A stretch of DNA of 39,312 nucleotides, from contig FP929036.1 in assembly GCA_000209815.1 (NCBI GenBank), positions 1,321,153 to 1,360,464 of the forward strand. Direction: 5' to 3'. Position 1 is the stretch's first letter. Each line of letters begins with the position of its first letter. Positions 14,296-17,014 of the stretch are shown one piece after another. The position numbers and the translations under genes were made by a program. This stretch comes from Butyrivibrio fibrisolvens 16/4 (GTDB lineage: Bacteria > Bacillota > Clostridia > Lachnospirales > Lachnospiraceae). Below the pieces are notes generated by a model. That model was not told the origin of the DNA. It made no database searches and worked only from the letters and a program-made list of their open reading frames with translations.

Positions 14296-15159
14296 ATGGA
14301 GACACAAATGAAAGAGATACTTAAAACCGGGTTAATTGTTATTTTGGGATTATTCTTATATGCCCTTGGAATTGCTTTCTTCGTAGAGCCATCTGGCCTT
14401 ATTACAGGCGGCGGTACAGGAATCGCTCTTTTTATCCATCATACGTGGGGAATAAAAACATCCGAGGCGTTACTTGTTATAAACACTATTCTTTTCTTAG
14501 TAGGCTGGAAGGTTATGGGACACCGCTTCGCCGCAAATACATTACTTTCTACATTTGTATTGCCTGTAGAGATTCGAATTGCAGAGATAATCGCAGCTCG
14601 TTGTCAGCCTGTTGATGATATAGTGCTTTGCACGATTTTTGGAGGACTTCTTATAGGTGCCAGCCTTGGAATCGTTATTCGTACCGGGGCATCCACTGGT
14701 GGTATGGATATTCCGCCTATTGTTTTAAACAAGTTCTTTGGCACATCCATCTCAGGTGTTATGTGGGTTTGCGATATTATAATATTAGGCATTCAGGCTG
14801 TATTTACAGATATTAATTTGGTACTTTATGGAATCATTCTAGTAGTAATATACACAATGACTCTTGATAAGACTCTTATTCTTGGAAAGGCCAAGACTCA
14901 GATAAAGGTTGTTAGTAAGAAGAGCGATGAGATTCGTCGAGCAATCCTTCAGGATGTGGACCGTGGCGTTACTGTTATGTACGGCCGCACAGGCTATCTT
15001 GGCAAGGATACAGAGATTTGTCTATCAATCGTATCTACCAGGGAGTTGGCAAAGGCAGAGAGACTTGTTCATCAGATTGATCCAGAGGCTTTCATTATTG
15101 TAAGTCGTGTTTCTGAGGTTAAGGGACGAGGCTTTACTGAACAGAAAAAGTATTTATAG
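14296..15159 (+). CDS. YitT family membrane protein (DUF161/DUF2179)
   Basis: About 287 residues with five to six membrane helices in the first 190 residues, starting with the family signature LGLFLYALGIAFFVEPSGLI and TGGGTGIALFIHH. IVIRTGASTGGMDIPPIVLN follows. The soluble C-terminal DUF2179 domain comes next (VVSKKSDEIRRAILQDVDRG then VTVMYGRTGYLGKDTEICLS). YitT proteins are widespread in Firmicutes and their transport function is not settled. The start could be ATG 14296 or ATG 14308. The latter has GGAG at 14298-14301 and fits the family length equally well. The frame further up to 14221 lacks hydrophobic character and is not supported. Confidence 0.88.
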   Translation: METQMKEILKTGLIVILGLFLYALGIAFFVEPSGLITGGGTGIALFIHHTWGIKTSEALLVINTILFLVGWKVMGHRFAANTLLSTFVLPVEIRIAEIIAARCQPVDDIVLCTIFGGLLIGASLGIVIRTGASTGGMDIPPIVLNKFFGTSISGVMWVCDIIILGIQAVFTDINLVLYGIILVVIYTMTLDKTLILGKAKTQIKVVSKKSDEIRRAILQDVDRGVTVMYGRTGYLGKDTEICLSIVSTRELAKAERLVHQIDPEAFIIVSRVSEVKGRGFTEQKKYL

Positions 15160-15185
15160 AAGAATCATATATTCTGACAGATAAT

Positions 15186-15242
15186 AATGTGGATAACTTT
15201 CTAATTGTGCATGCTAAAAATAGAAAGTTATCCACATTTTTT
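15186..15242 (+). terminator. long perfect hairpin terminator containing two DnaA-box sequences
   Basis: AATGTGGATAACTTTCTA (15186-15203) is the exact inverse of TAGAAAGTTATCCACATT (15221-15238), with a 17-base loop and a T run. It ends the yitT unit. Both arms contain a consensus DnaA box (TGTGGATAA at 15188-15196, TTATCCACA at 15228-15236). Confidence 0.85.
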
Positions 15243-15322
15243 ATTAATAGCATGGTTTTCAAGAAGAAACGAAATAAAAATGCAGGAATACTTGCAGAGA
15301 TTTTTTTGCAATAAAAACCTTG

Positions 15323-15374
15323 GAAAACTTTGTTTAGATACTAGAAAAAACTAGGCTTTTATGATAAAGTTTTC
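15323..15374. other. nested inverted repeat upstream of the mgtE leader ORF
   Basis: GAAAACTTT (15323-15331) is the exact inverse of AAAGTTTTC (15366-15374). Inside it CTAG-AAAAAA-CTAG (15341-15354) forms a second, smaller inverted repeat. It lies in the 180-base gap between the yitT terminator and the leader ORF, where the promoter must also be. It could be an operator pair or part of the leader RNA. Confidence 0.4.
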
Positions 15375-15411
15375 TTGGAAATTCTTAAATGTATTCAATT
15401 AAAACGAAAGG

Positions 15412-15540
15412 AGAGCAGCTATGGATAAATCCGACAGTCACGGGCGATTATGTAACTTATATACAGCTGCTCTTTTAATTTTCTAATCGGGCAGTTCCCT
15501 TGTGTTGTTTAATGCAAACTACATAATCAGTGACTTTTTT
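15412..15540 (+). promoter_or_regulatory. mgtE leader: competing RNA stems and intrinsic terminator (putative attenuator)
   Basis: Three mutually exclusive pairings are visible. (1) AGAGCAGCT (15412-15420) with AGCTGCTCT (15465-15473), 9 perfect base pairs, which would hide the leader-ORF start. (2) CGATTA (15445-15450) with TAATCG (15484-15489), which includes the ORF stop codon. (3) AGTCAC plus GATTATGTA (15436-15454) with TACATAATC plus GTGACT (15520-15535), a 15-bp stem with one internal loop, followed by six T, a large intrinsic terminator 24 bases before mgtE. Stem 3 competes with stem 2 directly, and its left arm lies inside the leader ORF. The sequence does not match the M-box Mg2+ riboswitch core as I know it. 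Confidence 0.65.
15421..15486 (+). CDS. 21-residue leader peptide ORF upstream of mgtE
   Basis: AAAGGAG (15407-15413) sits seven bases before ATG 15421, a better ribosome binding site than that of mgtE itself. The ORF begins MDKSDSHGRLCNLYTA and ends in a hydrophobic ALLIF before TAA at 15484-15486. Its codons 6-12 form the left arm of the terminator at 15436-15540. Its codons 15-18 are the inverse of the region just upstream of its own start. This placement argues for a regulatory leader peptide whose translation controls mgtE rather than a functional product. No family is known to me for the peptide. Confidence 0.6.
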   Translation: MDKSDSHGRLCNLYTAALLIF

Positions 15541-15563
15541 ATTCCTATAGTTCAGGTGAAACT

Positions 15564-16952
15564 ATGGAAAACAAAGATCTTTTAGAAGATAGCAAGACTC
15601 AGGAGATTGTTGACTTGCTACGTTCTGACATGGGTGCAGAACAGTTGATTGAGGCCCTGGATGATTATCATGAAAATGATATTGCTGAGGCCTATGAAGC
15701 ACTGGATACAGAGGATCGTCAGAGACTCTTTGGCATCTTAGGTGCAGAATTACTTTCAGAAATCTTCCCTTATATTGAGGACGTAGGTGAATACTTAACT
15801 GAGATTACACCAGAGCAGGCGGCTGATGTCTTAGAGAACATGGATGCCGATGATGCGGTTGATGCTTTGGAAGATATCGAAGACGAGGAGCAGAGAGAAA
15901 AGCTCATCGAATTGATGGATGAGGATGCTTCCGCTGATGTACGACTGATCAATTCCTACGATGAAGACGAAATCGGTAGCATGATGACTACTAATTTCAT
16001 TGTCATCCAGGAGAACTTTTCAGTAAAGCAGGCTATGCGCTCCCTTATTTCACAGTCCCAGGACAATGATAATATCAATACTATCTACGTAGTGGATGAA
16101 AATAACAAATACTGCGGTGCTATCGAGCTTCGCGATTTAATTTTGGCCAGAGCCGATACACCTTTAGAGGAAATCATCAGTCACAGCTATCCAAGTGTTC
16201 CTGCGGATGCAGTGATTTCTGATACTATCGAAATGTTAAAGGATTATGCGGAGGATTCTATTCCTGTCCTTAATCCAAATGATGAAATAATTGGTGTAAT
16301 CACAGCTCAGGATATCATCGAGGCCGTTGATGATGAGATGGGTGAAGACTATGCTAAGTTAGCTGGTTTGACTGCAGAGGAGGATTTAAATGAATCCCTT
16401 CCAGAAAGTATTAAGAAACGTATTCCTTGGCTTCTTCTGCTTCTTGGATTAGGGCTTGTTACCAGCTCTGTTATCGGTATTTTCGAAGCAGTAGTTGCTT
16501 CTGTTGCAGTTGTTGTTGTATTCCAGTCGCTTATTCTTGATATGGCAGGAAACGTTGGTACACAGTCACTGGCTGTTACCATCCGCGTACTTATGGATGA
16601 GGAGATTTCTGGATTAGAAAAGGCCAAATTCGTTCTCAAGGAAATGCGAGTTGGCGGTACTAATGGATTGATTTTGGGATTGCTTGCATTTGTATTTGTA
16701 GCTTTATATCTACATGGATTAAAGGGCTACGCATGGTATGCAGCATTTAGTGTATCTGGTATTGTTGGTTTTTCACTTTTTGTGGCTATGATTGTTTCCA
16801 GCTTTATCGGTACCATCATTCCTATCTTTTTCCACAAGATTAAGGTGGATCCAGCCGTTGCATCTGGTCCACTTATCACTACAGTAAACGACCTTGTAGC
16901 TGTTGTTACATACTACGGATTGGCAGGATTGCTTCTGGTAGGACGTTTATAA
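15564..16952 (+). CDS. mgtE: magnesium transporter MgtE
   Basis: The 462-residue protein has the MgtE order. An acidic N-terminal superhelical domain (about 1-135, with ITPEQAADVLENMDADDAVD repeats) is followed by two CBS domains (about 136-262, MMTTNFIVIQENFSVKQAMR and VPADAVISDTIEMLKDYAED). A linker helix leads to five C-terminal membrane helices from about residue 287 (IPWLLLLLGLGLVTSSVIGI, ILDMAGNVGTQSLAVTIRVL). The conserved pore stretch AGNVGTQ is present. It is a Mg2+ channel that closes when cytosolic Mg2+ binds the soluble domains. AGGTGA precedes the ATG. Expression is probably set by the leader at 15412-15540. Confidence 0.95.
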   Translation: MENKDLLEDSKTQEIVDLLRSDMGAEQLIEALDDYHENDIAEAYEALDTEDRQRLFGILGAELLSEIFPYIEDVGEYLTEITPEQAADVLENMDADDAVDALEDIEDEEQREKLIELMDEDASADVRLINSYDEDEIGSMMTTNFIVIQENFSVKQAMRSLISQSQDNDNINTIYVVDENNKYCGAIELRDLILARADTPLEEIISHSYPSVPADAVISDTIEMLKDYAEDSIPVLNPNDEIIGVITAQDIIEAVDDEMGEDYAKLAGLTAEEDLNESLPESIKKRIPWLLLLLGLGLVTSSVIGIFEAVVASVAVVVVFQSLILDMAGNVGTQSLAVTIRVLMDEEISGLEKAKFVLKEMRVGGTNGLILGLLAFVFVALYLHGLKGYAWYAAFSVSGIVGFSLFVAMIVSSFIGTIIPIFFHKIKVDPAVASGPLITTVNDLVAVVTYYGLAGLLLVGRL

Positions 16953-16966
16953 AATATGAAATTTTT

Positions 16967-17014
16967 AAGCCCTCTATATTGTTATTCAATATAACAATAT
17001 AGAGGGCTTTTTTT
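16967..17014 (+). terminator. strong intrinsic terminator after mgtE
   Basis: AAGCCCTCTATATTGTTAT and ATAACAATATAGAGGGCTT make a perfect 19-bp stem with a small loop, then TTTTTT. Confidence 0.92.

Follow-up and report, generated by a model that had tools for sequence, protein, structure and literature searches.

In the attenuators of amino-acid operons such as trp, his and ilv and in the leader peptides of antibiotic-resistance genes, the position of the ribosome on a short leader ORF selects an antiterminator or a terminator. For Mg2+ import, the available part of the account of MgtL, which precedes mgtA in Escherichia coli and Salmonella, describes a leader peptide with Glu2 and Asp4 from which ribosomes drop off at low Mg2+, switching the importer on, and the work on EttA presented there concerns acidic residues that are adjacent or one apart (PMC11282234). 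According to the accessible portion of PMC8092293, mgtQ of the Salmonella mgtCBRU operon carries Asp2 and Glu5, acidic residues that reduce translation of mgtQ itself and increase output of the Mg2+ importer. The M-box (ykoK, RF00380) controls Mg2+ importers including Bacillus subtilis mgtE by an intrinsic terminator, as stated in the accessible parts of PMC4072509 and PMC12288461. In Mycobacterium tuberculosis, a conserved uORF lies behind the M-box of pe20 (Rv1805A) in a Mg2+-related leader; as far as the available part of PMC12810186 goes, it needs the M-box as well as Rho and is described as specific to mycobacteria, and its peptide differs from the one reported here.

The leader that we describe lies upstream of mgtE in 39,312 nucleotides of Butyrivibrio fibrisolvens 16/4 DNA (the window), whose host genome falls into the Pseudobutyrivibrio group with the MgtE of P. 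ruminis CF1b as nearest named relative (95% identical). With MgtL, as far as described in the available text, it shares a short leader ORF upstream of a Mg2+ importer and early acidic residues, which in MgtL occupy codons 2 and 4. It differs in that MgtL works with a Rho-dependent terminator and a P-type ATPase, whereas here we find intrinsic terminators, mostly mgtE genes, Clostridia as hosts and a peptide with Asp2, Asp5 and a CGA codon at position 9. The acidic positions 2 and 5 of mgtQ are those of Asp2 and Asp5 here, yet mgtQ, as portrayed in the part of its description at hand, has 8 codons, sits between mgtC and mgtB, and controls mgtB translation rather than a terminator. Amino-acid and antibiotic leader peptides share the logic of ribosome position, but here a run of regulatory codons is absent and the downstream genes are Mg2+ importers. 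Nor is the leader an M-box, and the first-pass annotation had recognised none here: RF00380 matches neither the window at its gathering score, nor positions 15150-15700 at E <=10, nor any place in the host genome, and none of the 13 M-box carriers found among 120 Lachnospiraceae genomes belongs to the 41 leader-ORF genomes at threshold.

All elements of the leader are on the forward strand. A putative promoter -10 region, TATGATAAAG, was located by its exact string at 15360..15369, about 60 nt 5' of the leader ORF, and TGTTAAA(G/T)TTTT-like strings are seen by eye at the matching place in related loci; a promoter consensus scan did not report it. The Shine-Dalgarno sequence AAAGGAG (15407..15413) stands 7 nt 5' of the ATG of a 21-codon ORF, MDKSDSHGRLCNLYTAALLIF plus stop codon (15421..15486), and a purine-rich counterpart is present in the relatives listed, having been a search criterion for part of them. 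The start-side arm of a first helix, H1 (15409..15420), can pair with the ORF-tail arm AGCTGCTCTTTT (15465..15476) and so hide the ribosome binding site of the ORF itself; within it, AGAGCAGCT (15412-15420) is the exact reverse complement of 15465-15473. This helix reaches p=0.020 in the window alone. In the predicted fold, the ORF-tail arm has a second partner, GGGCAGTT (15489..15496), which pairs with 15465-15472 and can free the Shine-Dalgarno region. Codons 6-12 of the ORF form the 5' arm of the terminator (15436..15454), and AGTCAC-GGGC-GATTATGTA pairs there with TACATAATC-A-GTGACT (15520-15535) in 15 pairs with an internal loop; together with its U-run, the 3' arm extends over 15520..15540. 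CGATTA (15445-15450), which lies within this 5' arm and includes the CGA of codon 9 (15445..15447), can alternatively pair with TAATCG at the stop codon (15484..15489). The mgtE gene itself (15564..16952) encodes a Mg2+ transporter of 462 residues that matches TIGR00400 above its cut-off as well as PF01769, PF03448 and PF00571.

An exact string search placed the ORF, its ribosome binding site, the terminator arms, the CGATTA/TAATCG pair and the inverse repeat just where the first-pass annotation had put them, and its terminator T-run is likewise present, though as five T followed by ATT, so that the claimed six T are reached only by counting the last paired one. Folding of the window leader on its own is unremarkable (z -0.89, with 45 of 200 shuffles folding equally well), and the signal rests on comparison. 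Rfam at lax thresholds gave 23 matches, none of them plausible and most on an inverted repeat at about 15181-15243, where chance miRNA matches arise. This repeat, behind the upstream gene, and another at about 16965-17010 behind mgtE are probably ordinary terminators.

Within the genus, the leader ORF is kept in all 24 Pseudobutyrivibrio-type mgtE loci (L032-L055). A 501-nt query spanning the leader and the start of mgtE (15400-15900) matches 28 of 29 same-genus genomes, the own one included, and the leader ORF is found in the loci of all 28; in 14 of them, the leader is divided between two matches, with 90-95% identity in the first one (about 15400-15454). These ORFs start with MDKSDSHGRL or differ from it by one or two residues, have 20 to 28 codons and stop directly past the shared arm. 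Single-step codon changes in codons 2-16 were synonymous in 8 cases and nonsynonymous in 8, more often synonymous than the expected 24% (p=0.02), and for codons 2-10 the changes listed comprise 5 synonymous and 1 nonsynonymous. In five of 15 leaders, one pair of H1 shows an A-U/G-C exchange on both sides. Across these 15 leaders, the number of paired cells and the covariation score exceeded those of all 500 shuffles, but that exchange is the only two-sided one, as was equalled by 459 of the 500, and pair types were fewer than in shuffles. Covariation inside Pseudobutyrivibrio is thin, and the argument is carried by the tests across genera.

Outside the genus, ORFs of the type M-D-[SN]-C-D-S-x-G-R stand in front of mgtE in further Lachnospiraceae and Clostridia, and the leader recurs in dozens of genera. 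MDSCDSTGRST, MDNCDSYGPS and VDSCDGSYRRRGC are examples from upstream of mgtE elsewhere that were picked by their Shine-Dalgarno sequence and not by any peptide criterion. A strict DNA pattern is found in 12 of 397 Lachnospiraceae genomes; its reversed form, used as control, had no match among the genomes listed. We built a sequence-only model, R1, from 30 seeds (L067 was left out), which finds one strong match in the host genome (E 4e-6; next 0.15) and, at E <=0.001, one match apiece in 41 of 397 Lachnospiraceae genomes, including all 12 with the strict pattern, nine of which had served as seeds. In 39 of the 41, an MgtE match follows downstream on the same strand. In L206, it begins 700 nt off with another possible ORF in between, and in L195 (G296) and L201 (G391) it lacks the first 110-130 residues and starts at residue 112 or 132, so these two proteins may be missing most of the N-terminal domain. 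Another match (L184/L148 in G368) precedes an mgtE remnant of around eleven codons, with a leader ORF and terminator that look intact. The last one (L209) lies upstream of a P-type ATPase; in NCBIfam, the first 390 residues of this protein score best with Mg2+-translocating ATPases, though under the full-length cut-offs.

Beyond the family, R1 at E <=0.01 matched 10 of 391 genomes of the class, comprising three Lachnospiraceae, five members of other families with the match upstream of mgtE, and two false matches (L174 and L175), which were rejected since no Mg2+-importer ORF was seen to adjoin them. We also scored 54 mgtE loci from other genera whose upstream DNA was present (L060 and L104, having none, were left out); 28 have a strong R1 match, 17 of these being seeds, and 26 do not. 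By BLAST, the leader hit 308 of 397 Lachnospiraceae genomes at E <=1, convincingly as a leader only in G153 and G049 besides its own. A search of 20 leader loci with Rfam found nothing on the leaders, and only a T-box in L079 and TwoAYGGAY in L097, both elsewhere in the loci; the check for a known riboswitch in the window leader likewise returned no family. In one locus (L154 in G024, about 1501-1900), an M-box and its terminator are followed by a second leader ORF that resembles this family, with a TTG start and the sequence DSSPGRSR, by a terminator belonging to that ORF and then by mgtE, which places two Mg2+-type controls in tandem; the R1 score of that ORF is only 17.9 bits.

Pairing was analysed in 64 leaders, made up of 42 of the 43 R1 and class leaders and 22 chosen from filtered mgtE leaders and class matches, with L209 left out. 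In five of the 64, the scan found no terminator. Of the remaining 59, 41 have a terminator hairpin 3' of the ORF with arms of <= -7 kcal/mol and an adjoining U-run, and in 18 the scan gave none of this kind. The inverse repeat before the ORF start, highlighted from the window alone, turned out to be the most consistent helix of the family: the ORF tail pairs with the Shine-Dalgarno and start region (-18 to +12) better than in dinucleotide shuffles at p<0.05 in 47 of 59 leaders and at p<0.01 in 34, though the leaders are related and neither these 59 nor the 41 with terminators are independent cases. A second helix, A2:B, joins codons 11-18 to the 5' arm of the terminator and is significant at p<0.05 in 24 of 41 leaders (15 at p<0.01; Wilcoxon 1.3e-9) and short of p<0.05 in the other 17. 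Sliding controls gave a signal for A2:B over codons 9-20, strongest at 11-18 (z below -2 in 21 of 41 leaders, compared with 0 to 3 in outside windows), and for H1 in windows that begin 20-44 nt ahead of the stop, strongest at 28 (34 of 59 leaders, compared with 0 to 6). Both helices differ in sequence between genera but are fixed in place. Directly 3' of the terminator, TTTTTATGCCC recurs across genera (L142/L176, L151/L191, L153/L178, L168 and others), perhaps as an extended U-tract or pause signal.

We then folded the leaders with a ribosome footprint of -14 to +16 nt masked, a calculation that includes neither kinetics nor pseudoknots. Averaged over the 41 leaders, the terminator forms with a probability of 0.38-0.47 while the P-site lies within codons 1-6; the value rises to 0.60 at codon 7, 0.76 at codon 8 and 0.82-0.85 at codons 10-19, and is 0.69 when no ribosome is present. 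A steeper course is seen in the 24 leaders that had been picked for their significant A2:B helix (0.32-0.50 on codons 1-6, 0.68 on 7, 0.81 on 8, 0.91-0.95 on 10-19, and 0.73 without a ribosome). When the RNA of these 24 was ended before the 3' arm of the terminator as a co-transcriptional case, about 13-14 A2:B pairs formed while the P-site lay within codons 1-6, falling to 7.7 at codon 8, 3.4 at codon 9 and about none at codons 11-19, compared with 12 pairs without a ribosome, where the antiterminator formed first in 19 of the 24 leaders. With a shorter footprint (+12), 11.1 pairs are left at codon 8 and 8.5 at codon 9. These foldings indicate that antitermination is possible when there is no ribosome or when it has got no further than about codon 8, and that a ribosome on codons 10-19 enforces termination. 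Once the ribosome approaches the stop codon, A2:B comes back (at codons 25-26, 12-13 pairs), which in this modelling is a gap in the simple scheme unless trailing ribosomes cover codons 10-19.

In the window and its closest relatives (L032-L035), the proposed switch has been rewired. The GCGACGAGACATT element that relatives carry at codons 11-18 is missing there, and codons 6-12 themselves serve as the terminator 5' arm, an arrangement that the first-pass annotation had described correctly for its own locus, together with the CGATTA:TAATCG alternative found in all five sequences of this clade, but that is not the one of the wider family. An ORF-armed terminator is also seen in the XBD2001 type (L042, L045), which is intermediate. 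We handled the clade apart because the terminator scan chose wrong hairpins in it. In all five sequences, the lower stem of the terminator forms with a probability of 0.94-0.96 when the P-site is on the stop codon and 0.00 when it is on codons 2-12; a P-site on the start codon gives 0.54-0.58, and leaders free of ribosomes give 0.01-0.23. For the window sequence only, the stem is also high at codon 13 (0.76) and from codon 17 onward. The folding thus suggests that the clade has kept a logic of finishing the ORF and switching off by other means, though termination here would be counteracted if a further ribosome followed on codons 2-12.

Taken together, the comparison supports the original proposal that the position of a ribosome on the leader ORF decides between terminator and alternative pairing, and we regard a leader-peptide attenuator that switches mgtE on when ribosomes arrest or abort early at low Mg2+ as the probable if far from certain explanation of the locus. 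The ORF, which its strong ribosome binding site, the start-codon swaps and the synonymous excess within the genus suggest is translated, the intrinsic terminator and a mutually exclusive antiterminator built from ORF codons would together class it as a ribosome-mediated transcription attenuator. Translation would occur while the leader is being transcribed, with the first nine codons, M-D-x-x-D-S-x-G-R with CGA for Arg9, as the sensing part. At low Mg2+, ribosomes would slow, stall or drop off within these codons, either because the early pair of aspartates makes the ribosome unstable during elongation or because CGA is read slowly, or both. A ribosome that is lost, or that gets no further than about codon 8, a threshold suggested by the foldings, would leave codons 11-18 to pair with the terminator 5' arm, so that no terminator forms and mgtE is transcribed; with sufficient Mg2+, ribosomes over codons 10-19 would block the antiterminator and transcription would end. 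The ORF tail folding back onto its own Shine-Dalgarno sequence would limit re-initiation. In the window clade, with codons 6-12 as the terminator 5' arm, the terminator is predicted once the ribosome reaches the ORF end. Comparison shows that the ORF exists, that some of its residues are conserved, that the two helices recur and that the leader is linked to Mg2+ importers; we infer Mg2+ as the signal from the downstream genes and the precedents MgtL and mgtQ, and ribosome destabilisation would be the mechanism by analogy to precedent.

The strongest rival keeps the ORF and the attenuator and replaces the signal by general translation speed, by a CGA9 that is read slowly (through charged tRNA-Arg or inosine wobble) or by some other ribosome state that arises incidentally from Mg2+ shortage. 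We consider it unlikely overall, yet deserving of serious attention in view of codon 9. Among 63 distinct 30-nt starts from 82 leaders, Arg9 is present in 49 and encoded by CGA in all 49, making it the sole Arg codon found at this position in the family. In the longest downstream ORFs, by comparison, CGA accounts for 6.4% of Arg codons (45 of 705), in seven window genes for 14% (13 of 92) and elsewhere in the leader ORFs for 7 of 73. Codon 9 lay outside the pattern and filter criteria, yet it is a column of R1. A ribosome awaiting CGA9 has its P-site on codon 8, which in the foldings is about the last position that leaves much antiterminator. The acidic signal is also weak, as two aspartates three codons apart fall far short of the acidic runs used for defining ribosome destabilisation. 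Against a signal other than Mg2+, Asp2 and Asp5 are each kept in 62 of the 63 starts and thereby better than Arg9 with its 49, though their conservation is somewhat inflated since they were partly search criteria (pattern, filter and R1 columns), as also holds for Asp or Glu at codon 2 in 42 and at codon 5 in 41 of 43 leaders. These two residues and the CGA codon are the fixed features of the peptide, in place of the SHGR segment proposed at first. Moreover, all 41 family matches have a Mg2+-importer type gene downstream, one remnant counted, which ties the leader to two unrelated importer families, the second by one case only. By eye, the leader peptides listed hold no run of codons for one amino acid, and hence the leader is not an amino-acid attenuator.

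An RNA-level Mg2+ riboswitch, with GGAGG..ATGGACAGTTGYGAYAGT..GGNCGAAG as aptamer and the ORF incidental or secondary, appears to us improbable, though the start region is conserved at the nucleotide level: apart from the invariable CGA, Ser3 is never encoded by TCN (0/40) and Ser6 almost always by AGY (50/52), GGCGAAG is retained in L070 despite a shifted frame, and the excess of synonymous steps across genera in codons 2-10 is weak (37 of 129, or 29%, vs 23% expected). The fixed CGA9 may mean a role at the RNA level. Yet start codons (ATG 57, GTG 5, TTG 1 of the 63) interchange in the same context in L079, L080 and L085, which speaks for translation of the ORF. Third positions also vary between C and T at Asp2 and Asp5, with GAC and GAT both common, and at Cys4; codon 4 is Cys in 46 and Ser in 11 of the 63 starts, ten of the latter by TCN in all four kinds. 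Both supported helices hide the Shine-Dalgarno sequence or use codons 11-18, neither resembling an aptamer core, and the leaders match nothing in Rfam. A functional small protein with an activity of its own, such as regulating MgtE, and encoded in the leader by chance is very improbable, since despite a conserved N-terminus, a strong Shine-Dalgarno sequence and an ORF that is open in the members listed, conservation is mainly confined to codons 1-10 and the remainder varies in sequence and length (20 to 52 codons) and follows base-pairing. Pfam and NCBIfam have no family for four leader peptides searched.

The attenuator that we favour stands beside MgtL rather than within its type: early acidic residues are present, while the separation of Asp2 and Asp5 by two residues departs in most members from the adjacent or one-apart spacing (as in EPDP) found in the accessible MgtL literature. 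It is not filed there, yet by analogy it may well work similarly. A few relatives do have D-x-D (MDPDS in L095, MDADS in L091, MDADAG in L159), and MDADSNYRS of L091 and MDPDSNYRSS of L095, both upstream of mgtE, come nearer to the acidic-x-acidic start of the enterobacterial MgtL. Short ORFs with early acidic residues also precede 6 of 17 ATPase loci examined (L158/L216, L161/L221, L157/L217, L223, L225 and L226, upstream of Mg2+-type P-ATPases), some of them alike (MDTGSNSSAGAIERSRILW, MESGSSPSMDIVPKSILW, MDGNPRSRLNDLAPQYK and MDSNPRNPINNFKSQYK), and are possibly, on their sequences, a second family of leader peptides for mgtA-type genes.

Several published motifs were considered as prior descriptions and rejected. 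In the part of PMC11109978 accessible to us, the "mgtE motif" occurs in Thioalkalivibrio only, the available text of PMC6429828 does not contain the word "magnesium" and offers for Mg2+ a corA motif of enterobacteria, and PMC4072509 and PMC12288461 both concern M-box leaders as far as their accessible parts go. Our literature search, which covered the main text of openly accessible papers, found no description of this leader. Leader-peptide attenuators are a known kind; the peptide, the gene class and the geometry are, within the reach of that search, new.

A bolder version of the favoured reading, which we put forward tentatively and hold to be doubtful as a whole, would make the leader a Clostridial peptide-based Mg2+ sensor that evolved independently of mgtL and times the ribosome against an intrinsic terminator. 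Asp2 and Asp5 would destabilise the ribosome, and CGA9, through inosine wobble, would be a second Mg2+-dependent step that stops it just short of the antiterminator arm; the sensor would serve both MgtE and the Mg2+ ATPase and replace the M-box in much of the Lachnospiraceae. Control of Mg2+ uptake in gut and rumen Lachnospiraceae is little described in the literature searched, and the M-box occurs in only 13/120 of their genomes. If true, the attenuator would be an independent case of the ribosome itself acting as a bacterial Mg2+ gauge, and its natural series of variants, including the rewired clade, would offer a test bed for the effects of nascent acidic residues and slow codons on the ribosome.
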